NCBI RefSeq assembly: GCF_000425145.1
Contig: NZ_AULF01000030.1
Coordinates: 1-63,992, forward strand
DNA length: 63,992 nucleotides
From: Pedobacter glucosidilyticus DSM 23534
GTDB lineage: Bacteria > Bacteroidota > Bacteroidia > Sphingobacteriales > Sphingobacteriaceae
Direction: 5' to 3'
In this document: positions 964 to 16,419 of the stretch, piece after piece
How the letters are laid out: every line of letters starts with the position of its first letter
How positions within the stretch are numbered: position 1 is the stretch's first letter
Translations under genes and position numbers: made by a program
Notes under the pieces: generated by a model
What the model was told of the DNA's origin: nothing
Seen by the model: only the letters and a program-made list of their open reading frames with translations
Database searches by the model: none

Positions 964-1503
964 TTACCCCACTTTCTGCCTCAAATAAGAAAATGCTTTT
1001 GTAATATGTGCTTCCACGCACTTTAAAGAAACATCTAAATGCGCTGCTATTTGCTTGTTCGAAAATCCATCCTCTTTGCTTAACAAAAATGTTTGCTTGC
1101 ATTTGGGTGGTAAATTTTCAATTTCCCGCTTAACCAGGTATAATAATCTTTCTGAATGGCTTTCTTCTTCTTCTTGTACAGTAGTAGCTAAAGCATCAAA
1201 ATATATTTTATCTAAAGCTAATGCCGATTTTCTTTTTCGGTACTGATCAATAAACTCGTAATATACGCATCGGTATAAATAGCTGTTCACTATAAAATCA
1301 TCTTTAAGCTTGTGTCTTTGATTCCAAAACTTCATATATACATTTTGTACAATGTCTTCAGATAACTCTCTATTCTTTGTTAAATTCAACACGTACCTTA
1401 AAAGCTTTTTACGGTAGGTTTCTACCAAATAAGCATAAGCTTTCGGCTCAGACTTTTTTAAAGATTGTATTAATTCTTTGTCATTTGTAAATTTTGTATC
1501 CAT
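964..1503 (-). CDS. RNA polymerase ECF-type sigma factor
   Basis: This 179-residue protein has the two-domain layout of an ECF sigma factor. Region 2 (about residues 25-95) includes the LSEDIVQNVYMKFW segment that binds core polymerase. Region 4 (about 125-176) is a helix-turn-helix with the FSNKQIAAHLDVSLKCVEAHITKA pattern, split here by its turn. It resembles the FecI-like group that works with FecR anti-sigma proteins and SusC receptors. No fecR follows it; downstream is only the repeat-rich region. It is not a close paralogue of the sigma genes at 1730-2305 and 15630-16184. Its target is unknown. Confidence 0.88.
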   Translation of the reverse strand: MDTKFTNDKELIQSLKKSEPKAYAYLVETYRKKLLRYVLNLTKNRELSEDIVQNVYMKFWNQRHKLKDDFIVNSYLYRCVYYEFIDQYRKRKSALALDKIYFDALATTVQEEEESHSERLLYLVKREIENLPPKCKQTFLLSKEDGFSNKQIAAHLDVSLKCVEAHITKAFSYLRQKVG

Positions 1504-1729: not shown

Positions 1730-2305
1730 TTAAAAAAGGTTGGTATATAACCTGGTTATTATCAGTATAAGAGGGCCTAAGTCTTTTCTAAGCAGTTCTT
1801 TTAAAACTTTCATGGCTTTTACCATGTTTTTCTTTACGGCACTTTGGGTGATACCTAATACTTTAGCAGCTTCCCGGTATGTCTTCCCCTCTACCCTGCA
1901 AAGTTTAAAAACAGCTCCGTTTTGGGTAGTGAGTTTCTCTAGGTAATAATTAAATAGCTTTTGATATTCCAGATCAGTAATATCCTCTTCTATTGACCTT
2001 TGCAGATTATCATATTCCCGGTAAAGAGTTTCTCTTAATTGCTCCTCTTTACTTAATTTTCTTAAATAATTGAGGGCTCTATTTTTTGCAGATGTAAATA
2101 AATAGGCTTCTATATTATTTATAGTAATTTCCTGATTTTCTCTTTCTACTAAGTTTAAAAACAAATCCTGAGTAATATCTTCTGCTACATCTGTTAATTT
2201 TACATAGCTTGTTATGAAACCTAAAATTGCCTGATAGTAATCCTTGTATAGATCCTGGAAATCTTGCCTGATATCAGATAGTTGAAGTGTTAAGCTTTCA
2301 TCCAT
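1730..2305 (-). CDS. RNA polymerase ECF-type sigma factor (paralogue of 15630-16184)
   Basis: This 191-residue ECF sigma factor has region 2 at about 20-90, with VAEDITQDLFLNLVE and the highly conserved AYLFTSAKNRALNYL block, and region 4 at about 125-175, with YREAAKVLGITQSAVKKNMVKAMK split by the turn. It is clearly collinear with the sigma factor at 15630-16184 over nearly its whole length, with about 60 percent identity by eye. The two paralogues bracket the glycerophosphodiester locus. This copy has lost any fecR partner and may act on the fecR-susC system in trans. That link is inference. Confidence 0.88.
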   Translation of the reverse strand: MDESLTLQLSDIRQDFQDLYKDYYQAILGFITSYVKLTDVAEDITQDLFLNLVERENQEITINNIEAYLFTSAKNRALNYLRKLSKEEQLRETLYREYDNLQRSIEEDITDLEYQKLFNYYLEKLTTQNGAVFKLCRVEGKTYREAAKVLGITQSAVKKNMVKAMKVLKELLRKDLGPLILIITRLYTNLF

Positions 2306-2661
2306 AATTCCTACAATTTTACTATAGAAATTGTAAAATAGCAGGCACTAATAATTCTAATATGGTATGTTTTGATTCCAATTATTGAATATCTATATCA
2401 GAAACAATTACTTAGGCATACCTTAATTGAGTAGTATAAGCACCAATGCTTTGCTTACATTATTGGGCCCTCAAATAAAAAATTTTTAAAAACGTTAAGC
2501 TGCATAGCTTTAAGTGTTTGGTAATAACTAAAAATTTATCATTATTGATACTTAATTTTCATCCCTATAATTAACAACTTGAATTAATGAGTCATTTAGT
2601 TTAGATAAATAATTTATCTTGAAAGAGACTTTGTTGTAAAGATGGTGTTATGCTATTTTAA
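2306..2661. other. Gene-free spacer between porin and sigma genes
   Basis: About 355 bases of AT-rich sequence without a credible open frame. A weak hairpin, TTAAGCT around 2494 with AGCTTTAA near 2507, is the only structure seen. It should hold the 3' end of the porin transcript and the promoter of the sigma gene's neighbours on the - strand; no clear -7 element was identified. Confidence 0.4.
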
Positions 2662-3855
2662 TTATATGCCTAACTCTATCTGAAATACAGCACCCCAAAA
2701 GTTTCTGTCATTTTGTAAACTGTAATCTCCATCAATGGTATTATAACTGATGTTTAACTGCGCCTTTACACGATGACCACGTAGATATTTTGTTAACCCC
2801 AGTTCTATAACTTCTTTACGATCCTCTAAAAGGGACAATCTTTCTGACGGATTTAAAATAGAATAACGAATAGCTGTTTCTATATCATTCTTAAAAATGT
2901 AAGACGCTTGCTGATTAATTCCCTCCCCCTCATAAGCATAGCTTAAATCTCCTGTATTATCATAGGTAAACGGATCATCTGTTTTCCGACTAATATACTC
3001 CATAGCATAGGCAAAACCTTGATATTTGACTATAGCATCTGCTATAAAAGTACTCATATCTACACCCGAATACAGATCTCTTCCTAACTGCCCACCTGTA
3101 TTAGTTGTTGATTTGTTAAAAGAATATCCGGCAGCTAAACTCAATTTTATTTTTTCTTCTCTTTCCAGATCTCCCTCAGAATAATCGCCTCCATTGGTAA
3201 AATTACCAAATGGCAACCATTCTGCCCTAGTTGTATAAGCTAAGCCTTTGTCTGTAGTATTTACTGATCTTCCTTCCCCGGTAGATACAGCTCCTTTAAG
3301 GTGATACACTGTTTGCCCTATTTTGTTGCTATAATATGCTTTTAAGCCAAAATCTCTGTCTAAGGTTAAAGCAGCATTTACGATAGATCGTTCTGCAAAT
3401 TGTAATTGCCCCGATGAATTAACGCGTTGCCTATTACCAGGTAATTTATTTTGACCAAATGCGACATAAAAATTATCACTAAAATTATAAAAGATAACAG
3501 CATCTCTTACAATATTGGCAACACCTGTGTTTTCAAAATCTTGATCTCCTTTTGAAAAAGATAATTGAACGCTGTAACCCAACTTTTCTCCTAAAATATA
3601 ACCATCGCCACGTAAACGCAACCTTCTTACTCGGGCATCCCATTCGTTAATACCAAATTTATCAGCAGAAACAGTAGAAAAACCAACCCGGTTTTGCATC
3701 CTAAAACGAAAATTCATGTAAAAAAGAGAGTCTTTTGATTGATACTGAATACCCTCAAATTCTACAGGGCGTTCGTCGCTCTCGGTTTGAGACTTGCATG
3801 TTAAAACTATTGCAAAATTTAAAAGGAATACAAAAAATAATGATTTGTTGAACAT
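2662..3855 (-). CDS. Outer-membrane porin, phosphate-selective OprO/OprP-like
   Basis: The 397-residue protein begins with an export signal (about residues 1-22) and continues as alternating amphipathic strands ending in EL GI-type hydrophobic residues, as in a beta-barrel. The N-terminal mature part (YMNFRFRMQNRVGFS, with DARVRRLRLRGDGYI) is typical of the Bacteroidota branch of the phosphate-selective porin O/P family. Such porins admit phosphate or polyphosphate, but specificity cannot be read from sequence. It is the last gene of the glycerophosphodiester cluster, 138 bases after the GlpT-like gene, which favours a phosphorus or organophosphate role. The Cys before the presumed cleavage site is odd but does not make a good lipobox. 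Confidence 0.8.
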   Translation of the reverse strand: MFNKSLFFVFLLNFAIVLTCKSQTESDERPVEFEGIQYQSKDSLFYMNFRFRMQNRVGFSTVSADKFGINEWDARVRRLRLRGDGYILGEKLGYSVQLSFSKGDQDFENTGVANIVRDAVIFYNFSDNFYVAFGQNKLPGNRQRVNSSGQLQFAERSIVNAALTLDRDFGLKAYYSNKIGQTVYHLKGAVSTGEGRSVNTTDKGLAYTTRAEWLPFGNFTNGGDYSEGDLEREEKIKLSLAAGYSFNKSTTNTGGQLGRDLYSGVDMSTFIADAIVKYQGFAYAMEYISRKTDDPFTYDNTGDLSYAYEGEGINQQASYIFKNDIETAIRYSILNPSERLSLLEDRKEVIELGLTKYLRGHRVKAQLNISYNTIDGDYSLQNDRNFWGAVFQIELGI

Positions 3856-3993
3856 AGTATATGATTAAAACTTGATTAAAAAAACTTCTGAACAATGAAA
3901 TAAAGGATGATTCAAAACTTGACTATCAAAATTTTTTAAACAATGTTTATGGATTATAATTTTTTAAGTATTAAAGTATCTCCTATATGATTA

Positions 3994-5319
3994 CTATTTC
4001 TCACTTACTTTAACATTCCAGATGAACAAGCATAACACAAAGGATAAGACTGCAGAACCTATCCAAAACAACATTAGACCATTAAAATCATAGACAACTT
4101 TACCATTTACCAAATGCTTTCCCTGTTCTATCAGTATGCCGCTTGTAATGTCTTGCAAGCCAGCACCTAAATAACTTGCTATACCTACTACACCTATAGC
4201 TGCTCCGCTTACACTTTTTGGAACAATATCTACAGCCATTAAGCCGGCTAGGTAGCAGATAAGTACACCAATAGAAAATCCAAAAACAATCATGGCCGCA
4301 ACCTCAGCCCACTCATATCCTGCTGGTAACCATAAAAATGTGGCTAAGGATGCGGCGTTTAATACACCAAACAAAAGTGCTGGGGCGTTTCGTTTTCCTT
4401 TAAAAACTTTATCACTTAACCAGCCGGAGAAAATATTACCAAAAATTCCACTGATAGAACTCACAGAAATGATAGAACTTGCTACCAGCTCGTTATACTG
4501 CCTATGTTCTTGAAGAAAAAATATACCCCAACTGGTTACTGCATAACGCCCAACATACATAAAAGCACTAGAAAAGGCCAAAACCCAAATAGCTGGATTT
4601 TTTAATACCGATAATTGCATAAACCCAATTTCTTTTTTGGCAACGGGTACAATAATAGGGGCTAAACCCTTAGATTCAGGACTGTCATGTAAAAAAAGTA
4701 AAATAAGTACAACACCTAGAAAGCCTGCTCCGGCAGCACTAATAAAGCCCCATTGCCACCCTAAATAGGAAACTACTAAAGCGGTAAATACATAAGTAAA
4801 AGCTTCACCTATATTATGGCTAGCACTGAAAAAACCATAATAAGTCCCTCGCTCTTTATTATTAAACCATCTGGATAATGAAACTATAGAAGGTGGTGCG
4901 CCCATACTTTGAAACCAACCATTTAATGCCCATAGTACAGCAAAAAATATAAAGCTATCAACAAAGCCTAAGCTAAAGTTGATGATTGCAGAAATGAATA
5001 ATCCAAAAGCCATAAAGGTTTTGATATTACTTCTATCCACTAAAAAACCATTTACAAACTTACCTACTGCATAAGCTACAAACAGGGCCGAACCTATAAT
5101 GCCTAGTTGTGTTTCAGTAAGGATCTGATGATCTACCAAAGGTTTTTTCATCACATTAAGGCTTAAACGGCAAACATAATACAAGCCGTAACCAAAAGTA
5201 GCTGAAAGGAATACCTGTGTTCTTATTTTTTTGTATCGTTTATCTACCTCCGATTTATCCATAGTAGGGTCAAGACCTAGCTTTGGAGCAGGAGCAAAAA
5301 AGTTGAATAACTTATGCAT
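3994..5319 (-). CDS. Organophosphate:phosphate antiporter, GlpT/UhpC-like (MFS)
   Basis: This 441-residue protein has about twelve membrane segments and belongs to the OPA branch of the major facilitator superfamily. Two arginines match the phosphate-coordinating pair of E. coli GlpT (Arg45 and Arg269): Arg51 in YYVCRLSLNV and Arg258 in YVGRYAVTSWG. In E. coli these bind the phosphate of glycerol-3-phosphate exchanged for inorganic phosphate. Two glycerophosphodiester phosphodiesterase genes lie just upstream, so glycerol-3-phosphate is the likely substrate. A sugar-phosphate transporter or UhpC-like sensor is possible, but no uhpAB partner is present. The spacer to the upstream gene is 154 bases, enough for an internal promoter. 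Confidence 0.82.
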   Translation of the reverse strand: MHKLFNFFAPAPKLGLDPTMDKSEVDKRYKKIRTQVFLSATFGYGLYYVCRLSLNVMKKPLVDHQILTETQLGIIGSALFVAYAVGKFVNGFLVDRSNIKTFMAFGLFISAIINFSLGFVDSFIFFAVLWALNGWFQSMGAPPSIVSLSRWFNNKERGTYYGFFSASHNIGEAFTYVFTALVVSYLGWQWGFISAAGAGFLGVVLILLFLHDSPESKGLAPIIVPVAKKEIGFMQLSVLKNPAIWVLAFSSAFMYVGRYAVTSWGIFFLQEHRQYNELVASSIISVSSISGIFGNIFSGWLSDKVFKGKRNAPALLFGVLNAASLATFLWLPAGYEWAEVAAMIVFGFSIGVLICYLAGLMAVDIVPKSVSGAAIGVVGIASYLGAGLQDITSGILIEQGKHLVNGKVVYDFNGLMLFWIGSAVLSFVLCLFIWNVKVSEK

Positions 5320-5473
5320 TAAAGATTAATATTAAAATGAATAACAGATAATTAATAGAAAAATGTTATGCCCAAGCCATACGTTACCAGCTTAAAATAA
5401 CAGGCTTGAGCTAACACAACCAACTATTAATATGATTAACAGCAATTAGTTAAATAAGTAAACAGTAATAATT

Positions 5474-6361
5474 TTACTTGTTTATTTTCTTTAAATACTG
5501 TTTTAACTCTATAGGTCTATCACTTTGAATGATATTTGCCCCCTTAGCAACTAACCAGCCCCAAGTTTCATCAGGCTTGTTTTCTTCTACAGCAATATCA
5601 TCATCGTGTCCTCCACAGTGTTCTGGCCATAAAGAGTTAAACCAAATCGGATGTCTTTTTTTAAACTCTGGTACTTTTGAAAGCAGAGGAGAAGTATCAT
5701 TATCGAATATGATTTGGATAATTGTCCTTTTACGGTTTTTATAAGTATCAATAATCTTTTCAGCCTCTGGGTTCTTAGGGTTTATAATCAGTTGTAAGGT
5801 AAGTTCCTCTGGAATATTTTGATGTTTAATTAACAAACTATCATAAGGAAGTCCATAAATATTATAGATGGTTTGTTCCAACATCTTCTGCTTTTTTAGC
5901 TCAAGGATAACCTCATCAAAATATTCATAACCCTTATCAATATCGATAATAATTTTATCCTTTGCAGTAACTAACATTTCTTCCAATGTTGGGATAATAT
6001 GTCTTGTAGGATGCCCCGTTCCACTTAGTAAATAGAATTTACGTATCTCCTCTAAGGTAAAATCTTGTGGTTTACCCTTTCCATTAGTAGTTCTATTAAT
6101 GGTCTTATCATGCATGATGATAAGCTTACCATCTTTAGTTTTTGCTAAGTCAAATTCAGCAACATCAATATCTCTATCAATACAATTTTTTAAGCTCTGT
6201 ACGGAGTTTTCTGGAGAGTTTCTCCAATCACCTCGATGAGCTGCAACTAATACTTTTTCAGTTTTCTTTCTAAAAATTTCGTTCAATTTTTCTTGAGGTG
6301 TTTGTGCGTTTACCCCCAATTGTATAAATAGGAGAAGAGCAACCCATATATTTTTCTTCAT
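5474..6361 (-). CDS. Glycerophosphodiester phosphodiesterase, exported
   Basis: It hydrolyses glycerophosphodiesters to glycerol-3-phosphate and an alcohol. The start at 6361 is chosen because it opens a clean signal peptide (MKKNIWVALLLF to NAQ, cleavage near residue 20); the longer frame to 6403 would run into the end of the upstream gene. The GDPD barrel spans about residues 35-295. It has the paired His-Arg of AAHRGDW (His42, Arg43), the SPENS Glu51-Asn52, the AEFDLAKT metal-binding pair and the MHD catalytic His. Export implies action in the periplasm or at the surface, upstream of the GlpT-like transporter. It is a paralogue of the neighbouring gene but lacks its PKD domain. Confidence 0.9.
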   Translation of the reverse strand: MKKNIWVALLLFIQLGVNAQTPQEKLNEIFRKKTEKVLVAAHRGDWRNSPENSVQSLKNCIDRDIDVAEFDLAKTKDGKLIIMHDKTINRTTNGKGKPQDFTLEEIRKFYLLSGTGHPTRHIIPTLEEMLVTAKDKIIIDIDKGYEYFDEVILELKKQKMLEQTIYNIYGLPYDSLLIKHQNIPEELTLQLIINPKNPEAEKIIDTYKNRKRTIIQIIFDNDTSPLLSKVPEFKKRHPIWFNSLWPEHCGGHDDDIAVEENKPDETWGWLVAKGANIIQSDRPIELKQYLKKINK

Positions 6362-6390
6362 AATTCTTATTAAAAGTTGTGTGCAATAAC

Positions 6391-7569
6391 TCATGGTAAC
6401 CAAATGTTTTTAGCTTGTAGATAGGAGATGATTTCTAAAGGATAATCTGATTGAATGAGTGAAATTTGATTATCTAATAATCTGTCTACCACAGTATCAG
6501 AACCTTGTATAGGTGGAGATGTAGGGCTATTTACATAGGCATTTGCCCATAATTTTATACCATTGTTAGTTGGCCAATTAGTAAAGCTAGGAGATAAGGT
6601 ACCAGATGACATGTGCCAAATAGCTGCTTTAGGGTTCATATTAAAAGCATTATTATAATCTGTTATTGACCCCGCACCTAACAATACAATTACTTCACTA
6701 TCCATTTCTAATAAAGCTTTTGCTACTTGTGGCGATTCTGTGTAAATCATCACCATATTAACCATATTTAAAGCGGCAACAGTATTGTAAATTCTATTGT
6801 AGTATTCCATGGAAGTATCCCATGATGCATCTATATCTACATAAATCTTTCCTTTGGCTGCTTCTAACGACTCTTTTAGGGTTGGTATTACATAATTAGT
6901 TGGTGTACCCTTAAATAATAATTTCAGTTGTCTTAGTTCTGAAAATGTTCTTTGAGAAACATTATAATTGGCATTAGCTGTTCTTGCTGTGGTTGCATCA
7001 TGCATCAATATCAACTCTTTATCTAATGTAAGCCTGACATCTAATTCAACAATATTAATTTGATTTAAAATAGCATCATTGATAGCTTCAATAGAATTCT
7101 CCGGAAAGTTTTTATGATAAGCCCGGTGTGCAGCTATCATAACTTTTGGATATAATTGAGCGATTTTCTCTTTCAAACCTATGAGGTTTCCATAATTAGG
7201 TGCTGTTGCGTTTTTTACTAATATTCTTTTAGAAAAAGTTGCCGTTTTTCCAGAATTATTTTTTACGGTCAGCTTTACTAAATAGCTACCTGCAAGAGAA
7301 AAACTATGATTTACTGTTTTCTCTGTTTTTATTGGAGAACCATCTGCAAAATCCCATTCCCAAGATACTATATTACTTTCTGTATCGGTTGTGCTACCTA
7401 TAAACGTAACCGAACTATTTACTGTGGTCTGGTTTACACTGATAGAAAAGCTTGCATCAATTTCAGCAACAGGAGGAGTAATAACTCCACCATCATCTGA
7501 TTTTGAGCATTGCACAAAGGCAATGCTCAAAAAAATAAGGTATAATCTTATGAAAAGTGAGTTTTTCAT
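6391..7569 (-). CDS. Lipoprotein glycerophosphodiester phosphodiesterase with PKD domain
   Basis: The 392-residue product starts with a lipoprotein signal (lipobox Cys at residue 21 in AFVQCSKSDDGG). A PKD-type immunoglobulin-like domain follows at about 38-120 (WEWDFADGSP is its hallmark), then a GDPD barrel at about 130-390. The barrel keeps the HR pair in AAHRAYH, the PENS Glu-Asn, ELDVRLT and the LMHD His. The usual Gly after HR is Ala, which probably alters the active-site loop. The SKSDDGG stretch after the Cys resembles surface-export signals of Bacteroidota lipoproteins, so it may be displayed outside. It lies 41 bases after susD and 29 before the second GDPD, consistent with one operon. 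Confidence 0.88.
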   Translation of the reverse strand: MKNSLFIRLYLIFLSIAFVQCSKSDDGGVITPPVAEIDASFSISVNQTTVNSSVTFIGSTTDTESNIVSWEWDFADGSPIKTEKTVNHSFSLAGSYLVKLTVKNNSGKTATFSKRILVKNATAPNYGNLIGLKEKIAQLYPKVMIAAHRAYHKNFPENSIEAINDAILNQINIVELDVRLTLDKELILMHDATTARTANANYNVSQRTFSELRQLKLLFKGTPTNYVIPTLKESLEAAKGKIYVDIDASWDTSMEYYNRIYNTVAALNMVNMVMIYTESPQVAKALLEMDSEVIVLLGAGSITDYNNAFNMNPKAAIWHMSSGTLSPSFTNWPTNNGIKLWANAYVNSPTSPPIQGSDTVVDRLLDNQISLIQSDYPLEIISYLQAKNIWLP

Positions 7570-7610
7570 ATTCCAAACTTCAAAAATCTTTATTTAAATA
7601 AAATTTGACA

Positions 7611-8966
7611 TTAGTCATAACCAATATTCTGCCCATATTTAGCAAGATCTATTTCTACTTGTGGTATAGGATAAAACAACAAATAATTCCTACCAGCTAA
7701 TGAAGGTAATAGGTCTAGTCGGTTAGTTCTTTTTATATCATACCATCTGTAGCCCTCTCCATAAAACTCTCTTTGTCTTTCGTCTAAAATCAAATTTTGA
7801 AAATCAGTAGCATTCAAAGCGGCTATGCTACCAGTTACAGGGGCAACGGTATATCTAGCTGTAAAATATGGTGCTAATGCAGTTTCTGCGGCAGAACCAA
7901 CACCTAAAGCTTCTGCTTTAATCAATAGCATCTCAGAAAACCTACTCACCATAATGGGTGTAAAATCCGCATTTGATGTACTTACCAATTGCTGCCCGTT
8001 TCTACCATTAGGATATTTTATAAGTCGTGTATTATCATTAGAAAACACAGCTGTTCTTCGTTTGTCGCCCGTACGTAATGGATTGATAGCATTTGCATAT
8101 AAATTAGCATGAAGGTTTATCGTAGGAGAATACTCCCATGTAGGATCTACATCATTAACCCTTTGATAAAAGACTTTACGATTATTAGAATTGTTATTAA
8201 CAAATGCAAAAATGACTTCTCTGCTAGGAGTATTAGCAATAAAATTTGATGCGTATCCGTTAGCATCTGTTGCTAATGAAAAACTTGAAGTTGTAACAGT
8301 ACCATAGGTAATTACCCTATCTGAATAAATTACGGCATTAGGTTTATCATTAGTAGCTAAATAAACTCTTGCTAATAAGGCTTGTGCTGCTTGCTTAGAT
8401 ACAAAAAACTTATTTGAAAAATTTGGTAATAAATTTTCTGCTGCAATTAAATCATCAATAATTTGCTGCCAAACCTGTGCTTCTGTAGAGCGTTGTACAA
8501 CATCAAAAGTTCTACTGGTCAATAAAGGAACACCACCCCAACGAGTTACCAGTTGGTAATACATTAAAGCTCTGAAATATAAAGCTTCTCCTCTGAAAGT
8601 TTGTAAGTTCCCCGTTTGATTTGGAGACTTATCTAAAGTCTCTAATAAAAAGTTGATGTCTGCAATACGATTATAGGCGTTTCTCCATAAACTTAAAACA
8701 CTAGGATCTGATGGATTCATGTTTACAGGGTCTACTAAGCTAAAACCTGGTCCACCTCTAAAATTATCAGCTCTTATATCAAAATCAAATGTAAAATTAA
8801 AAATACCGGTTTCAACCGAAGCATATACACCATTACGCAATTTACCGATATCAGAATCTGTTAATTGGTCCTGGCTGATAGCATCTCTAGGTAGTATTTT
8901 ATCTAAATTGTTTGAACAACTACTTGACAAAAATGCTATTACGATTATTAAAATATATTTCTTCAT
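7611..8966 (-). CDS. SusD/RagB-family outer-membrane lipoprotein
   Basis: This is the lid lipoprotein of a SusCD nutrient importer, 451 residues long. The lipobox Cys is residue 17 in FLSSSCSNN. The N-terminal SusD-like part is about residues 20-215, with tetratricopeptide-type helices (ETLDKSP, RGEALYFRALMYYQLV). The C-terminal part carries the family signature ILDERQREFYGEGYRWYDIKR. It is 17 bases downstream of susC, as usual for co-translated pairs. SusCD pairs commonly import glycans. Here the genes that follow are phosphodiesterases, so a phosphodiester ligand is proposed. Confidence 0.93.
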   Translation of the reverse strand: MKKYILIIVIAFLSSSCSNNLDKILPRDAISQDQLTDSDIGKLRNGVYASVETGIFNFTFDFDIRADNFRGGPGFSLVDPVNMNPSDPSVLSLWRNAYNRIADINFLLETLDKSPNQTGNLQTFRGEALYFRALMYYQLVTRWGGVPLLTSRTFDVVQRSTEAQVWQQIIDDLIAAENLLPNFSNKFFVSKQAAQALLARVYLATNDKPNAVIYSDRVITYGTVTTSSFSLATDANGYASNFIANTPSREVIFAFVNNNSNNRKVFYQRVNDVDPTWEYSPTINLHANLYANAINPLRTGDKRRTAVFSNDNTRLIKYPNGRNGQQLVSTSNADFTPIMVSRFSEMLLIKAEALGVGSAAETALAPYFTARYTVAPVTGSIAALNATDFQNLILDERQREFYGEGYRWYDIKRTNRLDLLPSLAGRNYLLFYPIPQVEIDLAKYGQNIGYD

Positions 8967-8983
8967 CTTAGAATTTTTTATAG

Positions 8984-11900
8984 TTAAAATTTAACATTAA
9001 GGCCAAATAAAAACGTTCTTAGGGTTGGTTGTAAACCAAAATCAACACCGTAGTTAGAACTTCCTGGGCTATTATCAAAAGATTGCTCTGGGTCATATCC
9101 TGAATAATTAGTAATCGTAAATAGGTTGTCAACAGAAGCAAAAACTCTTACACCATTAATGTATTTACTCTTAAAAACTTTACTAGGAATATTGTAAGCA
9201 AGAGTTACTGTTTTAAATTTCAGATATGATGCATCTTCTAAAAAACGAGTACTGGTTAAGAAATTATATCCTGCATTACCATAACCGCTATGAACTCCTC
9301 TTCTAACAGGTCTTGGAGTAGTATTACTTGTGCCTGGCCCGTTCCAGTAATTAGTGGCCACTTCTCTTCTAATACCAAAAAATTGCTCCACAGAAGTACC
9401 ATCTAGTAATCTGGTGTTTCCAAAGGCATTTCCTAGATGGTCTGTTCCCTCCGTACCATTTACCCCTCTCCAAGAGGCCATTACTTTATTGCCCAAAGAA
9501 AATTGTCCAAATACACTTAAATCAAATCCTTTGTACGATAGTTCAGAGGTAAAACCACCATATAAATCTGGTATGGCCTTCCCTACATTTAAACGATCTG
9601 CTTCTGTAATGTCATTATCACCATTAACATCTCTGTAAATTACGTCACCAGCTCTAACACCTTTATTAAATAAAGCTGTTGGAACATCAGCATCATTCTG
9701 GTAAATTCCTGTTTGTTCGTAAATGAAATAGGTACTAATAGGCTGTCCAACAATTAATGCTTTCATTTGCCCACCATATAAACCACTACCATCAGAAGGT
9801 ACAATTAAGAAATCAGTACCATCTATTAAAGAAACTAACCTGTTTTTAATCAATGAAATATTACCACCAAGTTGCCATTTAACTGCTTTATTGATAATCT
9901 TCCCTAATGCAGAGAACTCTAAACCTTTGTTCTCCATTACACCAATATTTGAATTAATACTGGTATAACCTGAGGTTGCTTGTATAGGTCTTTGGTATAA
10001 CAAATCAGTAGTTCTTTGTTGAAAGACATCAAAAGTAAACGATAGCCTATCATTTAAAATGCTAGCATCAAGACCTAGATTTGCTTGTTTTGCTTTCTCC
10101 CAAGTTAATGGCTGGGCTATTTGATTTAAAGAAAAGCCTGAAGAACCATTATAAGAATTATTAGCACCAGCTCTTACTAAAGATCTTGCAGCAAAGTCCC
10201 CTACACCAGAAATACTACCTGTTACACCATAACTGGCTCTTAGTTTTAATTCATTAAAAAAGTTTTGTTTTTCCATGAAACCTTCTTTATGAATTAACCA
10301 TGCCGCAGAAATAGCAGGAAAGGTTCCATATCTTTGGTCTTCAGAGAATTTAGAAGCTCCATCTATTCTTAAACTGGCATTTAACATATATTTTCCTTTA
10401 TAAGCTAAATTCAACCTACTGATGTAAGATTCTAATGCAAAACCACCATAGTCAAATCCACTAGCATAAATATTCGGACCAGTATTAACCAAGCCGAAAC
10501 TGCTGGAAGGGAAAGCATCATTTCTGTAATTATCACTCCTTACTCCAAAATCTTCACTTATTGATTTTTCGAAAGAATGTCCTGCAAGAACAGTATATTC
10601 TAAATCTCTAAAGTTATTATTGTACTGAAATAGGTTTTCTACAACATATCTCAATCTGGTATCTTTACTTTGTTCAATGGCACCCCAATCAGCAGATTGA
10701 GCTCTTGCCACCATTCTTTCTGTAATGCTTTTTTTCTCTTCAAATAAAGTCCCAAAAGCTCTTATTGAAGGGGTATATTTAAACCCTTTAAAAGGTTTGA
10801 TATCTAAGCTTACTGAGCCAATTCCTTCATATCTTTTAGAATTCCATTTCTCCTCATTAATAAGCATTAATGGATTGTGTCTTAACAAAAGTGTCCCGTT
10901 AACCTTATAATCACCAGTTGCGGTAAAAGGGCTATACCAAGGTTGTTCTTCTCTGGCAGTTCTCAGAACTTTTAAGCCAGAACCTTCTTCTTCTATTAAA
11001 TCACGGTCTGTTAAGACTAAAGATAAATTGGTATTTAGCTGTATAAACGAATTTATTTTATGATTTACTTTTAAACGATAAGAGTACTGGTCGTATTCGC
11101 TTGTTTTTATAATCCCTTCTTGATTGAATATCCCAAATGAAGTAAAGAAAGTAGTTTTATCATTTCCTCCACTTACCGATAAATTATAATTAGAAGTTTT
11201 TGCACTTGGTCTTTGTATTACTTTTGTCCAATCAGTCTCTTCTATTTCATTTGCCGGAGGTCTGTAAAATGTTAAAGAAGTTCCTCGCTGTCTATTAAAG
11301 TTATCTACAGCAACTTGCATTACATTTGCATATTCTTCTGAATTAGCCATCGGAATATCATGAGCTATGGTGCCACTACCGTTTCTAACATCTAATTCAA
11401 TAGATGTTTTTCCGGCCTTTCCAGCTTTGGTAGTAATAAGTACAACCCCACTATTCGCTCTACTTCCGTAAATTGAAGCTGCTGATGCATCTTTAAGTAC
11501 TTCCATTGATTCAATATCATTGGGGTTTATGTTGGGATAGCCTCCTTCGTTTGGCACACCATCTACTACAAATAGAGGTGCACTATTACCACTAATTGAA
11601 CCTACACCGCGAATTAACACAACCGGTCTAGCTCCCGGAATGCCAGAAGCGCTAGAGACATTGATACCACTTGCTCTACCTTGTAACATTTTTACAGGAT
11701 TGTATCCTGCTCCTTGATCAACCGTATTCATTTTTACAGTTGAAACCGCAGAAGATACTTGTTGTCTGCTTTGTGTACCATAACCAACAACTACTACCTC
11801 GTTAAGCCCTTTTGTATCTTGCTCCATCGTTATGGATAATGTACTTTGACCATTATATACTAACTCTTTACTAACAAAGCCCAAATAAGAAAAAATCAAA

Positions 11901-12436
11901 ATATCACCATCTTGCACTTGCAGAGAAAATTTACCTTCTGCATTTGTGGTAGTACCTTTTGTACTACCTTTTATGGATACAGAAACACCAATTAAAGGAT
12001 TCTTAATTTCGTCTAAAACTGTTCCTGTTAAATCTATAAATTTAGATTGCTGGATATTAATTGCCTTTTTTAAGGTAGGTTTAACAATAATAGTCTGACT
12101 TTTAATATCAAAACTAAAAGGTTGATTCTTAAAACAAATTTCTAAAGCTGCTTTGACATCAACAGAGGATACATTTATAGTTACAGTTTTAGCATTTTTT
12201 AAAACTTCTGCATCGTATATAAAATTAAAGTTAGTTTGCTTTCTGATTTCATTAAAAATCTTTTCTAACTCAACACCCTTTTCCTTTAATGTTACTTTTT
12301 GAGCGTAACTACTGGAGAAGGCACTTACTTGTAAGGTTGCTACGATTAAAAAAGCGAGAGTAAGCTTCATTGTTTTAACAATAATTTCTGGTATACAGAA
12401 TAAGTTTCTGTATACAAATGGTATGTAAAAATTCAT
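8984..12436 (-). CDS. SusC/RagA-family TonB-dependent receptor with STN signalling domain
   Basis: The 1150-residue outer-membrane transporter works with the adjacent SusD. The layout is a signal peptide at about 23-46 preceded by a 22-residue extension typical of this subgroup, an STN domain at 48-119, a carboxypeptidase-regulatory-like domain at 134-208, the LNEVVVVGYGTQSR plug entry at 211-224, a plug to about 340, and a barrel to the C-terminal Phe. STN domains contact FecR-type anti-sigma proteins, so uptake and ECF sigma release are probably coupled. fecR is directly upstream. The start at 12436 is supported by the relic copy at 15237-15326, which keeps the LFCIP segment of the extension. 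Confidence 0.94.
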   Translation of the reverse strand: MNFYIPFVYRNLFCIPEIIVKTMKLTLAFLIVATLQVSAFSSSYAQKVTLKEKGVELEKIFNEIRKQTNFNFIYDAEVLKNAKTVTINVSSVDVKAALEICFKNQPFSFDIKSQTIIVKPTLKKAINIQQSKFIDLTGTVLDEIKNPLIGVSVSIKGSTKGTTTNAEGKFSLQVQDGDILIFSYLGFVSKELVYNGQSTLSITMEQDTKGLNEVVVVGYGTQSRQQVSSAVSTVKMNTVDQGAGYNPVKMLQGRASGINVSSASGIPGARPVVLIRGVGSISGNSAPLFVVDGVPNEGGYPNINPNDIESMEVLKDASAASIYGSRANSGVVLITTKAGKAGKTSIELDVRNGSGTIAHDIPMANSEEYANVMQVAVDNFNRQRGTSLTFYRPPANEIEETDWTKVIQRPSAKTSNYNLSVSGGNDKTTFFTSFGIFNQEGIIKTSEYDQYSYRLKVNHKINSFIQLNTNLSLVLTDRDLIEEEGSGLKVLRTAREEQPWYSPFTATGDYKVNGTLLLRHNPLMLINEEKWNSKRYEGIGSVSLDIKPFKGFKYTPSIRAFGTLFEEKKSITERMVARAQSADWGAIEQSKDTRLRYVVENLFQYNNNFRDLEYTVLAGHSFEKSISEDFGVRSDNYRNDAFPSSSFGLVNTGPNIYASGFDYGGFALESYISRLNLAYKGKYMLNASLRIDGASKFSEDQRYGTFPAISAAWLIHKEGFMEKQNFFNELKLRASYGVTGSISGVGDFAARSLVRAGANNSYNGSSGFSLNQIAQPLTWEKAKQANLGLDASILNDRLSFTFDVFQQRTTDLLYQRPIQATSGYTSINSNIGVMENKGLEFSALGKIINKAVKWQLGGNISLIKNRLVSLIDGTDFLIVPSDGSGLYGGQMKALIVGQPISTYFIYEQTGIYQNDADVPTALFNKGVRAGDVIYRDVNGDNDITEADRLNVGKAIPDLYGGFTSELSYKGFDLSVFGQFSLGNKVMASWRGVNGTEGTDHLGNAFGNTRLLDGTSVEQFFGIRREVATNYWNGPGTSNTTPRPVRRGVHSGYGNAGYNFLTSTRFLEDASYLKFKTVTLAYNIPSKVFKSKYINGVRVFASVDNLFTITNYSGYDPEQSFDNSPGSSNYGVDFGLQPTLRTFLFGLNVKF

Positions 12437-12506
12437 ACATTTGAATTGTTTAAGGTTATATCTTTAATTTAATTTACAATTGATTAGGTTTTTGCCTTAA
12501 CATTTT

Positions 12507-12530
12507 CCGGAGGTGTTGCCGCACCTCTGG
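12507..12530 (-). promoter_or_regulatory. Conserved hairpin between fecR and susC
   Basis: CCGGAGGTG and CACCTCTGG form a hairpin around a short GC-containing loop in the 112-base gap between fecR and susC. It is preserved with minor changes at 15397-15420 in the decayed second copy, although the surrounding genes there are lost. No T-run follows on the - strand, so it is not a standard terminator. It may stabilise or process the mRNA so that susC is expressed more strongly than fecR. The function is inferred. Confidence 0.45.
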
Positions 12531-12548
12531 ATTTTTAGGCTTCATATT

Positions 12549-13688
12549 TTAATTCATCACGATAATCCTCCTTCCTTGAATTTCAAATTTGACAGACCCT
12601 GTTGCCGCTAATACATCAAGTAGTTCATTCACATTATTGAACTTTGAAATTTTGCCACCAAGTTTCTTTTGTGGAATACCACTTTTATATACTACCTCTA
12701 CATCGTACCAGCGTGATACTTTACGCATGATACTTTCTAAAGGTTCTTCATTAAACATAAAATAGCCCTCTTTCCAAGCTATGACTTCCTCAATATCAAC
12801 CCGATTTACATTCAATTGATTATTAACAGAAGTCATTCTTGCTTGATCACCAGGTGTTAATAATTTACTTTGTAATGTTTGGGTATTAGCTAGTCTTATG
12901 CTGCCTTCTATCAAAGTTGTTTTTGTGATTTTTTCATCGATATAAGCGTTAATATTAAATTGCGTTCCCAAAACTTCTACCATTTGGTTACCATAACTCA
13001 CCCGAAAAGGCCGTTTAGGATCTTTACTGATTTCACAATAAACCTCGCCGCTTATTTCTATCTTTCTCTGTTTTGAATCAAACCTAGTAGGGAACTTAAT
13101 AGAAGAAGCTGCATTTAACCAGATTTTTGATCCATCTTCCAAAATCAGTTTATATTGCCCGCCTCTGGGGGTACTGATGGTATTATAGGTTATAGCTTCG
13201 GATGTAGAAGAGGCCGCACCCGCTTTATAAACCAGCGCTCCTTCCTTTGAATTGTACACCATTAAACCTGCTTCTTTAGAAAGCAGTTCATTATTTTGCT
13301 CTTTAAGAATTATTTTCTCTCCATTTGCTAAAGTTAAAACTGCTTTGTCTTCACCCGGAGTAATGATATTTGCTCTTGCAATTTCTGGCTGCTTAGATTT
13401 TTCATTTTGAGTATAATTAGATACAAAATAGAAACTTGCAATAGATATCATTAAAATAAAGCTCGCTGCAACACCAACCAAACGATAGCGTTTTTTACGA
13501 AGAGAAACTACTTTTGCTTGTTTGGCTTTTTCCATGTTTTGAAGCAGATGCTGATCCATGGTTTCGGCCATTACCTCACAAAATTCTTCATCATCCATTA
13601 AATGAAATAATAAATCTAGTTCTTGCTTTGAAGCTGTGGAGGCCACATACCTTTCAACTAATTGTTGATAGAAGGTTCTTTGGTTCAT
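12549..13688 (-). CDS. FecR-family anti-sigma factor
   Basis: This 379-residue inner-membrane protein has a cytoplasmic N-terminal part of about 65 residues with the conserved Trp-poor anti-sigma helices, one membrane segment at about 69-90, a periplasmic FecR domain at about 170-265 (TPRGGQYKLILEDGSKIWLNAASSI is the typical block, interrupted by its turn), and a C-terminal DUF4974-type domain at about 308-378. It receives the signal from the STN domain of SusC and controls an ECF sigma factor. The sigma gene normally sits directly upstream. Here a T9SS-protein gene and a relic intervene, and the likely partner is at 15630-16184. Confidence 0.92.
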   Translation of the reverse strand: MNQRTFYQQLVERYVASTASKQELDLLFHLMDDEEFCEVMAETMDQHLLQNMEKAKQAKVVSLRKKRYRLVGVAASFILMISIASFYFVSNYTQNEKSKQPEIARANIITPGEDKAVLTLANGEKIILKEQNNELLSKEAGLMVYNSKEGALVYKAGAASSTSEAITYNTISTPRGGQYKLILEDGSKIWLNAASSIKFPTRFDSKQRKIEISGEVYCEISKDPKRPFRVSYGNQMVEVLGTQFNINAYIDEKITKTTLIEGSIRLANTQTLQSKLLTPGDQARMTSVNNQLNVNRVDIEEVIAWKEGYFMFNEEPLESIMRKVSRWYDVEVVYKSGIPQKKLGGKISKFNNVNELLDVLAATGSVKFEIQGRRIIVMN

Positions 13689-13872: not shown

Positions 13873-15153
13873 TTATTTAACGAACTTCTCGCTAAAAATG
13901 GTTTTATTATCATTAACAATCTTTAGCAGGTAAGTCCCTGATGGAAGCGTACTTAATGACAAAATTGTATCATTAGAATTTACGACTTGTGTTTTAATTT
14001 TAGCTCCTATCAGATTGTAAAGTTCAACACTATTTATACCATTAGGCATTCCATAAATGTTTATTTCATCTGTAAAAGGGTTAGGACCAGCTTTTATAAA
14101 TACCGTATTACCTTTTGCATGAATAACTTCGCTATATTCGAAGTCTCCATTCAAATCCACAGATTTCAACTTAAAGTAAGCATCTCCATCATGGGCATAA
14201 GAAAAAGTATATTTAGAATTATTGCCTTTACCTTTTACAGTACCCACCTCATTAAAATCAACACCATTTTTGCCGTATAGTACTACATATTTATCAAAAT
14301 CTATCTCTGTAGCAGCAGTCCAGCTTAGTTCAGTAGTGTTTAATTTTCTTTTGGAAGAAAAACTGGAGAGTTTAACTGGTGTAACAATTGCTTTTGGTGT
14401 AACACTTGCCCAAGTATTTCCCAATCGCAAATCATCCAAATACATTGGGTTAGTACCATTTGTTCCGCTACCACCCGTACCACATCGTAATATAAAACTG
14501 GCTACATTGGTTATGGCGCCACCCGCAACATTGGAGAAAGTTGGAGTTGGAGCAGAACCGGACTCGAAAGTTGGTGAAGAAGGATTAACCCACACATTCA
14601 TAACGTTTGTACCAGGTGTATACTCTATGACCACCATAGTAGTGACACCCGGTGAAAAATTTTGAGCGGTTGTATTGGCAGCCAGAGGAGGTACTGTACC
14701 ACTACTACCGCCATGAAAACCCAATTCATAAGTAACCCCATCGGCATTGGTAAGCACCCAAAGTGTACCGGCAAAATTACCCCCCGCAGCAGTGTTGCCA
14801 AAACCTACACTATACCTGCTATTGGCAGTGTTAAATTGTAAACTAGCCACTCTCATTAAAAAGGATGCATATACAGTACCAGTTTGATTAGCAATGGATA
14901 AAGGCTGGGTATTCGTACCTGTAGTACCACCAAAAAGAAGGGAATTGGTAGAAGCCCCGCTATTGTCTAATCCGGCGTAGTTAAGATTAACTGTGTTATC
15001 TACCGTTGCTAAGGCTCCGGATGCACCCCAGCCACCCTGAGTGCCCAATACACCTGTTGGGTAGTTAAAAGGCTCGTAGTAGGGCAGTGATTTTTGAGCC
15101 TGAGCAAAATGAACAGACACTAAAAATATGATAAATATTAAAAAAAATTTCAT
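13873..15153 (-). CDS. Secreted protein with type IX secretion (T9SS type A) sorting domain
   Basis: The 426-residue protein has a signal peptide (residues 1-20, ending AQAQ), a Gly/Thr/Asn-rich jelly-roll-like body to about 255, a fibronectin-like stretch at about 265-345 (ELSWTAATEIDFDKYVV and YFKLKSVDLNG are typical of proteins with this tail), and a C-terminal sorting domain at about 355-426 (AGPNPFTDEINIYG ... LPSGTYLLKI ... EKFVK). The tail directs export through the T9SS, with attachment to or release from the cell surface. The body has no recognisable catalytic motif and may bind carbohydrate or lipid head groups. The gene interrupts the usual sigma-fecR order and has its own terminator. 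Confidence 0.83.
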   Translation of the reverse strand: MKFFLIFIIFLVSVHFAQAQKSLPYYEPFNYPTGVLGTQGGWGASGALATVDNTVNLNYAGLDNSGASTNSLLFGGTTGTNTQPLSIANQTGTVYASFLMRVASLQFNTANSRYSVGFGNTAAGGNFAGTLWVLTNADGVTYELGFHGGSSGTVPPLAANTTAQNFSPGVTTMVVIEYTPGTNVMNVWVNPSSPTFESGSAPTPTFSNVAGGAITNVASFILRCGTGGSGTNGTNPMYLDDLRLGNTWASVTPKAIVTPVKLSSFSSKRKLNTTELSWTAATEIDFDKYVVLYGKNGVDFNEVGTVKGKGNNSKYTFSYAHDGDAYFKLKSVDLNGDFEYSEVIHAKGNTVFIKAGPNPFTDEINIYGMPNGINSVELYNLIGAKIKTQVVNSNDTILSLSTLPSGTYLLKIVNDNKTIFSEKFVK

Positions 15154-15236: not shown

Positions 15237-15485
15237 TCAACTAAAAAGCTTAAAAAAGCTATTGAAAACAGCATGTATACTGGGTATACAGAATAAATCT
15301 GCACTTAATTGGTATGTAGAAATCATACATTTTGCGGTGTTTAAAGGTTATAGCTTTGATTAATTTACAATTGATTAGGTTTGCCTTTAATTATTTCCGG
15401 AGGTGTTGCCGCACTTCTAGATTTTAGGCATAGGTATATCTTAATTCATAAAATCATCCTCCTTTCTTATAGTTTGAACCTTAAA
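15237..15485 (-). pseudogene. Relic of a fecR end, the fecR-susC gap and a susC start
   Basis: Read on the - strand, 15485-15442 translates to FKL-stop-ERRMIL. This matches the end of the intact FecR, VKFEIQGRRIIVMN, with in-frame damage. Next comes a copy of the fecR-susC spacer including the hairpin at 15397-15420, then an ATG at 15326 opening about 30 codons, MISTYQLSADLFCIPSI..., which align with the intact SusC start MNFYIPFVYRNLFCIPEI. A TGA at 15237 ends it. So a second fecR-susC junction once existed and nearly all of both genes was deleted. A one-base deletion near the start also shifts the frame. Confidence 0.8.
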
Positions 15486-15540
15486 AAGCAATAGCCGAAT
15501 AAAATCAACTAATTCTGAAAGATTTTTTGTTAAATAAATA

Positions 15541-15600
15541 ATTGGTTATTGTGTATAAGACAAAAAAAATAGGGCTAAGGGTACCCCTCTCCAAAAAATA
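15541..15600 (-). pseudogene. Relic of the sigma-fecR spacer with GGGTACCC element
   Basis: The segment from ATTGGTTATTGTGTATAAGACA to the AGGGTACCCCT element and AAAAAATA tract is nearly the same as 13695-13750, upstream of the intact fecR. Here it leads straight into the last codons of a fecR relic, so the body of that gene was removed. It marks the sigma gene at 15630-16184 as the former head of a complete sigma-fecR-susC module. Confidence 0.7.
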
Positions 15601-15629: not shown

Positions 15630-16184
15630 TTATAATTTGAATATAAAAAATAGCAAAAGCCCGAAATCTTTTTTTAGCAATAGCTTTAAGATCTTCATGG
15701 ATTTTACCATGTGTTTTTTTACTGCACTTTGAGAAATGCCCAGCTCCTCGGCAGCTTCCTGATAGGACTTTCCTTTATCTCTGCAAAGTTTAAAAACTGC
15801 ACTATTTTGTGGAGAAAGCTTTTCCAAATAATGATTTAGCAGTTTTTGATACTCCAAATCGGCGATATCTTCTTCTAAAGAACCATGTAATGTTTCATAT
15901 TCCTTGTAAAGTGCATCTTTAATTTGAGCCTCTTTACTTACTTTTTTTAGATAATTTAAAGCTCTATTTTTTGCTGAAGTGAAAAGATAAGCTTTAATGT
16001 TTTCTACTTCTTTATATTCCTTTTCTATAATGTTTAGAAATAAATCCTGAGTAATGTCTTCTGCTATGTCAGCCAATTTTACATAACTTAATACAAAGCC
16101 CAAGATTGCCTCATAGTGATCCCTATAAAGATTATGAAAATCCTGTTTGATATTGCTAATATGGTCTATTGGTCTTTCTTCCAT
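15630..16184 (-). CDS. RNA polymerase ECF-type sigma factor, probable partner of the fecR/susC system
   Basis: This sigma factor of about 184 residues has region 2 at about 15-85 (IAEDITQDLFLNIIE and AYLFTSAKNRALNYL) and region 4 at about 120-170 (SYQEAAEELGISQSAVKKHMV). The start at 16184 (MEERPIDH) is preferred over 16196 because it aligns with MDESLTLQ of the paralogue at 1730-2305. It is the sigma gene nearest to the intact fecR, but a relic and the T9SS gene lie between. Likely role: transcribing fecR-susCD and the GDPD genes when FecR releases it. That regulatory link is inference. Confidence 0.88.
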   Translation of the reverse strand: MEERPIDHISNIKQDFHNLYRDHYEAILGFVLSYVKLADIAEDITQDLFLNIIEKEYKEVENIKAYLFTSAKNRALNYLKKVSKEAQIKDALYKEYETLHGSLEEDIADLEYQKLLNHYLEKLSPQNSAVFKLCRDKGKSYQEAAEELGISQSAVKKHMVKSMKILKLLLKKDFGLLLFFIFKL

Positions 16185-16419
16185 AATATTTGGCAATTAT
16201 ACCTTACCCACTTGCCAACTACATTTGATTATAAACGATGCTGATAATCTTTAATTTATTTAGAAAAAAATTAGCTCTTAATTTATTAAATAAGACATTT
16301 AGGTTTTTAACAACTAATATAATATTAAATCTAAGTTGATTTGATACATTAAAAAATATTTATCAAACTTATATTAAAATATCAGCTTTATTGTAAAATA
16401 GCTATTAAGTTTTAGTTAA

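Follow-up and report, generated by a model that had tools for sequence, protein, structure and literature searches.

SusCD systems are usually taken as glycan importers, and the question raised by the locus described here is what such a system carries when it is encoded beside GDPD enzymes and an organophosphate antiporter. The window analysed (63,992 nucleotides) is one entire contig (G000:C24) of Pedobacter glucosidilyticus DSM 23534. We propose that the locus is probably a PUL-like uptake system for glycerophosphodiesters, either diesters of phospholipid head groups or short chains of glycerol phosphate; gene context gives good support to a predicted uptake of phosphodiesters in the form of glycerol phosphate. 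New here are the GDPD and antiporter variant of SusCD phosphorus loci and the signs of cassette exchange at one site; as a recurring class, loci that combine SusCD, GDPD and an OPA-family antiporter offer a way to test directly whether SusCD can carry organophosphates.

Gene content of the locus

All genes of the locus lie on the minus strand (Table 1), and the gene list, order and coordinates put forward in a first-pass annotation, made from the sequence alone, were borne out by open reading frame positions and by Pfam, whose curated cut-offs were passed by all six core proteins. Intergenic gaps, calculated from the coordinates, are 17 bp (SusC-SusD), 41 bp (SusD-GDPD2), 29 bp (GDPD2-GDPD1, counted with the ATG start of GDPD1), 154 bp (GDPD1-antiporter) and 138 bp (antiporter-porin). 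The SusC protein exceeds the NCBIfam SusC/RagA cut-off (TIGR04056; 840 vs 368.25 bits), and the SusD protein has both of its domains over cut-off, is a lipoprotein as judged by eye, and is encoded directly 3' of susC. SusCD stands beside phosphohydrolases instead of CAZymes (Pfam), a co-location expected of PUS (PusCD) loci.

Table 1. Features of the locus and its flanks, with the matches on which each assignment is based
Feature	Position	Strand	Basis or remark
ECF sigma factor ECF3	15630..16196	-	Pfam Sigma70_r2/r4_2 and NCBIfam Sig70_bacteroi1 over cut-off
Secreted protein, type IX secretion tail	13873..15153	-	Por_Secre_tail, 41.4 bits vs cut-off 27
FecR anti-sigma/transducer	12549..13688	-	Pfam FecR, FecR_C
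SusC-type TonB-dependent transporter with STN	8984..12436	-	Pfam STN, CarbopepD_reg_2, Plug
SusD-type lipoprotein	7611..8966	-	SusD-like_3, SusD_RagB; lipobox SSSC by eye
GDPD2, PKD-domain GDPD lipoprotein	6391..7569	-	Pfam PKD_4, GDPD; FVQC-SKSDD N-terminus by eye
GDPD1, exported GDPD with DUF4996 C-terminus	5474..6361	-	Pfam GDPD, DUF4996
OPA-family organophosphate:phosphate antiporter, GlpT-like	3994..5319	-	Pfam MFS_1; PDB 1pw4, E 5.4e-50
OprO/P-type porin	2662..3855	-	Porin_O_P (PF07396), 51.4 bits vs cut-off 20.9
ECF sigma factor ECF2	1730..2305	-	downstream of porin; 65-66% identity to ECF3
Further ECF gene	964-1503		downstream; last ECF gene before contig end

FecR and an ECF sigma factor, which had been proposed as the control of the locus, were both found upstream (Pfam, NCBIfam). 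ECF3 is the probable partner of FecR, and with the STN domain on the transporter the two complete, by genes, a FecI-FecR-type transenvelope signalling set. Locus membership is uncertain both for ECF2 and for the secreted protein, whose gene lies between the FecR gene and ECF3. The contig ends approximately 1 kb past the last ECF gene.

The two GDPD enzymes score 83.1 and 72.6 bits against PF03009 (cut-off 23.6), the match covering roughly the N-terminal half of the model in both, and the motifs AHR, PENS, E.D, MHD and PTL.E were found in GDPD1 and GDPD2 alike; in GDPD2, HRA takes the place of what we assume to be the usual HRG. The GDPD1 reading frame as listed (5474-6403) starts at TTG, and the ATG at 6361, which yields a signal peptide by eye, is the likely start. 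Its best PDB match is 3i10 (E 1.1e-59), an entry labelled merely as a 'putative' GDPD. The N-terminus of GDPD2 presumably resembles surface-export signals, and GDPD2 is a probable surface lipoprotein; among 150 relatives it has no close counterpart (best full-enzyme match, 33% identity).

The first-pass annotation had described the antiporter as GlpT-like, with two phosphate-binding arginines. In an alignment to 1pw4, R51 and R258 correspond to R45 and R269 of GlpT, which we take to be its substrate-binding arginines, and a lysine and a histidine are also kept; the arginines are thus confirmed. The score against the NCBIfam glpT equivalog (TIGR00712) is 215 bits, far under the cut-off of 632.55, and the PgtP (246.6) and UhpC (226.6) models score higher, both under their own cut-offs. 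Given the 1pw4 match and the kept residues on the one hand and the missed glpT cut-off on the other, the predicted assignment to the OPA family is safe and that to GlpT is not, and the substrate could be another organophosphate.

Recurrence of the gene set

A search for this gene order across Bacteroidota, as the first-pass annotation had suggested, was run both GDPD-first and antiporter-first and found all six parts in the same order, with an additional lipoprotein among them, in a genome from another family of the same class (L191; G487). The order there is SusC(STN)-SusD-PKD GDPD-PKD/propeller lipoprotein-GDPD/DUF4996-OPA-Porin_O_P, with identities to the window of 32% over 380 aa for the PKD-GDPD, 42% for the GDPD/DUF4996 protein and 55% for the antiporter. 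The window-type antiporter subfamily (E <= 1e-80) is present in 10 of 393 genomes of the order to which L191 belongs, in 11 copies, of which G487 was read gene by gene and the rest were judged from coordinates. A GDPD adjoins the antiporter in four copies (G487, G646, G606 and G612), and a same-strand SusC lies approximately 5.5 kb away or closer in at least three (G487, G646 and G612), all of which also have the adjoining GDPD. One copy each in G694 and G793 stands beside a divergent SusC without a GDPD, and the other five are likewise without an adjoining GDPD. A scan of genome contigs returned two loci, one in an unrelated MAG and one in Pedobacter sp. BS3 (L074, on the same contig as L076). 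The latter reads, on one strand, SusC-SusD-DUF5689-endo/exonuclease/phosphatase-GDSL-T9SS tail-Big_2-GDPD1-OPA, with 49% (GDPD1) and 71% (OPA) identity to the window.

Mapping of all 19 further OPA antiporter genes found in 150 relatives revealed SusC and SusD at 11 sites and a GDPD at 15; SusCD, GDPD and antiporter form a single same-strand run at nine, the full set being missing at the other ten. One of these nine runs is that of Pedobacter sp. BS3, and the remaining eight (L086, L088, L194, L195, L197, L198, L201 and L202) represent a second type, in which SusD is of the SusD-like_2 family, the GDPD is matched over its whole length and lacks DUF4996, and the antiporter shares 29-32% identity with that of the window. 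The commonest order, SusC-SusD-DUF5689-metallophosphatase-GDPD-OPA, is exact in L086, L194 and L197; a metallophosphatase occurs in six of the nine full runs, and in L088 a GlpD-type (glycerol-3-phosphate dehydrogenase-type) protein replaces it within the same run. That two differently built loci share three functions is the strongest functional argument we have.

Whether a GDPD beside SusCD is more than chance depends on the type of GDPD. For all 66 GDPD-like matches outside the window in 296 phylum genomes, SusC and SusD were both present in 9 regions, compared to 3 of 28 random places, with region lengths that differ between the two sets; SusC alone was found in two further GDPD regions and two further controls. 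The idea that GDPDs in general accompany SusCD was rejected, as these proportions show no difference. For the DUF4996 type, of 43 genes outside the window (including three short fragments and one, in G220, below the curated cut-off), 26 lie no more than 7 kb from a same-strand SusC and SusD, compared to 3 of the 28 random places (Fisher p = 2e-5, with kinship ignored and the 43 cases not independent); counted by genome, the figure is 22 of 33. GDPDs of this type occur in 11 of the 395 genomes searched in the phylum and in 27 of the 151 in the family (own genome counted in both). The co-occurrence of the DUF4996 type of GDPD1 with SusCD is more than chance, and DUF4996-type GDPDs gain a likely role from their SusCD and antiporter context.

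Two other SusCD loci with GDPDs were recorded. In G051 a single run (L039:832-14087) holds two SusCD pairs, a GDPD, PI-PLC-C1 and an alkaline phosphatase. In G002, of the same genus, L065:1253-16958 combines SusCD with a phosphodiester glycosidase (NAGPA), a beta-helix protein, GH20, two GDPDs and an alkaline phosphatase, and by its gene content looks aimed at a GlcNAc-phosphodiester polymer.

The chromosomal site

The flanking RlmL-like methyltransferase of the window is 98-99% identical to its counterparts in G012 and G013, where a PafA-like (PF01663) gene comes immediately after the RlmL-like gene, without an insert. The two genes are separated in G010 by another SusCD-GDPD cassette, whose SusC and GDPD share 32% and 41% identity, respectively, with those of the window. 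The PafA-like gene was considered as part of the G010 locus and rejected; it is a resident flanking gene of the site, and G012 and G013 have it without the insert. Just before the PafA-like gene, G010 retains a 155-bp stretch (L058:4988-5142), interrupted by stops, with 92% identity to window positions 2601-2755, which span the 3' terminus of the porin gene and bases downstream of it. Most simply read, this porin-gene remnant is what is left of a window-type locus that occupied the G010 site before being replaced. These are signs that sister species may have had two different SusCD-GDPD cassettes at one and the same place in the chromosome. Seven sites were read among 17 other genus genomes, and the remaining four (G014, G002, G003 and G008) contain no SusCD and no GDPD over the 2.3 to 8.5 kb read. 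In the own genome, the PafA-like gene was located on a contig other than the window (G000:C17), where the reading frame upstream of it is unrelated.

Within the window, positions 15283-15588, between ECF3 and the secreted-protein gene, hold decayed duplicates of the first part of FecR and of the junction between FecR and SusC; together with the ECF2/ECF3 identity (Table 1), they make a former duplication of an ECF-FecR-SusC unit probable. An 11-pair hairpin lies in the FecR-SusC gap (12506-12531), with a diverged copy in the remnant, within 15380-15425. A minus-strand frame (1-126), approximately 0.8 kb beyond the last ECF gene, is cut after 42 codons by the contig end. Judged by eye, it looks like the beginning of an IS110-type transposase; its 42 aa gave no Pfam match. 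Base composition has no clear break across positions 1-30000, a promoter pattern scan gave 7 matches vs 6.74 expected, and scans for sigma-70 and terminator signals gave nothing above chance.

A second GDPD-OPA pair, with a GlpD-type gene nearby, is encoded on another contig of the own genome (G000:C16). A GlpD-type gene near such a pair, and a PLD-like protein following the pair, are also found in G010, G012 and G013. The window locus differs from this shared pair in being accessory. The PLD-like protein adjoining the second pair (L082:5392-8265, 957 aa) has a weak, below-cut-off type IX tail match, as do those of G010, G012 and G013.

Proposed function and known systems

We infer the substrate, protein localisation, transport direction, induction and the gain in carbon or phosphorus from gene content, order, domains, motif residues and recurrence, all of which were observed directly. 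SusD would cap SusC and bind the substrate, which GDPD2 may trim outside the cell; SusC would carry it, TonB-driven, into the periplasm, where GDPD1 would release glycerol-3-phosphate and an alcohol from it. The OPA antiporter would then bring glycerol-3-phosphate in and cytosolic Pi out, the genome's GlpD would pass glycerol-3-phosphate to central metabolism, and the porin could offer passage for small products or Pi. The STN domain, FecR and ECF factor suggest the substrate itself as inducer. Of the glycerophosphodiester pathway outlined in the first-pass annotation, the parts gain support from the recurring SusCD/GDPD/OPA set and the GlpD-type protein in the L088 run; the substrate is predicted from gene context.

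The same parts, in a reading that overlaps with ours, would also suit a phosphorus-scavenging PUS locus switched on by Pi starvation via PhoB, which we regard as possible rather than probable. OPA antiporters normally exchange organophosphate taken in for Pi exported, which argues against scavenging, as does the fact that Pfam finds no phosphomonoesterase family among the window locus proteins. In favour are the metallophosphatase in six of the relatives' nine full runs and the phosphatases beside SusCD-GDPD in L039 (alkaline phosphatase, PI-PLC), L042 (PF01663, PafA-like) and L065 (alkaline phosphatase). Published PusCD loci likewise combine SusCD with phosphodiesterases and, in Table 1 of the source, FecR and ECF genes, and such Flavobacterium loci are Pi-induced (PMC8115612, available portion). 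For Salmonella, the available portions of PMC10715179 and PMC10055408 (preprint) report that GlpT is dispensable on glycerol-3-phosphate as P source and that UhpT and PgtP are needed on their own substrates, and propose asymmetric antiporter exchange. Since phosphate is the usual counter-substrate of this antiporter type, we rate carbon use as no less likely than phosphorus scavenging and slightly favour it; the GlpD-type gene in the L088 run and the FecR/ECF control lead us towards substrate-induced carbon use. The two are separable for this locus by a simple growth test.

SusCD usually imports oligomers, which would agree with a locus that forages on phosphoglycans or on teichoic-acid-like polymers of glycerol phosphate, with GDPD2 cutting outside, SusCD importing oligomers and GDPD1 trimming ends. 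L065, of the same genus, also joins SusCD, NAGPA, GH20, GDPDs and alkaline phosphatase, and the glycerophosphodiesterase GlpQ of B. subtilis can act as an exo-teichoicase (PMC7086022, available portion). We consider this rather unlikely, as the window locus proteins include no glycosidase or esterase family (Pfam) and no such report appeared in the visible text of the literature matches listed. A composite version seems quite unlikely: a glycerol-phosphate polymer PUL in which the surface PKD-GDPD would make endo cuts, SusCD would import oligomers, the periplasmic DUF4996-GDPD would act exo and the antiporter would take up glycerol-3-phosphate as carbon, with the locus belonging to a group of cassettes that would swap in and out of a single site next to the PafA-like phosphatase gene. 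It is very unlikely that the locus is a glycan or other PUL with GDPD, antiporter and porin as bystanders of recombination: remnants, duplicated ECF genes and the different G010 cassette do point to an unstable site, but the six genes recur in the same order in another family, a second SusCD+GDPD+OPA type exists, and the proteins of 2662-12436 include no carbohydrate-active family (Pfam).

In E. coli glpTQ, an exported GDPD is paired with an OPA antiporter for glycerol-3-phosphate, as in the window, and to our knowledge there is no SusCD; the window adds SusCD, a PKD-GDPD and a porin, and its exported GDPD is of the DUF4996 type. The own genome's second pair is nearer to glpTQ in layout. With classical glycan PULs the locus shares the SusCD layout, a lipoprotein enzyme plus an exported enzyme, and FecR/ECF control, with phosphodiesterases in place of CAZymes. 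The first-pass annotation had held a phosphorus-type SusCD to be unusual, yet SusCD complexes induced by Pi depletion were named PusCD in 2020, with phosphodiester uptake proposed (PMC8115612; repeated in PMC8812569; both as available in part). In the available portion of PMC8115612, PusCD clusters resemble the window locus in pairing SusCD with phosphodiesterases, in the FecR and ECF genes of some loci, and in the mention of inner-membrane organophosphate transporters. The F. johnsoniae loci in its Table 1 contain PI-PLC, metallophosphoesterase and PhoA with GDPD_2 (pf13653) and, unlike the window locus, neither a PF03009 GDPD nor an OPA antiporter; these loci are Pi-starvation-induced. Titles and abstract openings of the matches listed from open-licence literature contain no report of a SusCD-GDPD-OPA locus. 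The window locus is a variant of the PusCD kind, with a GDPD and an OPA antiporter.
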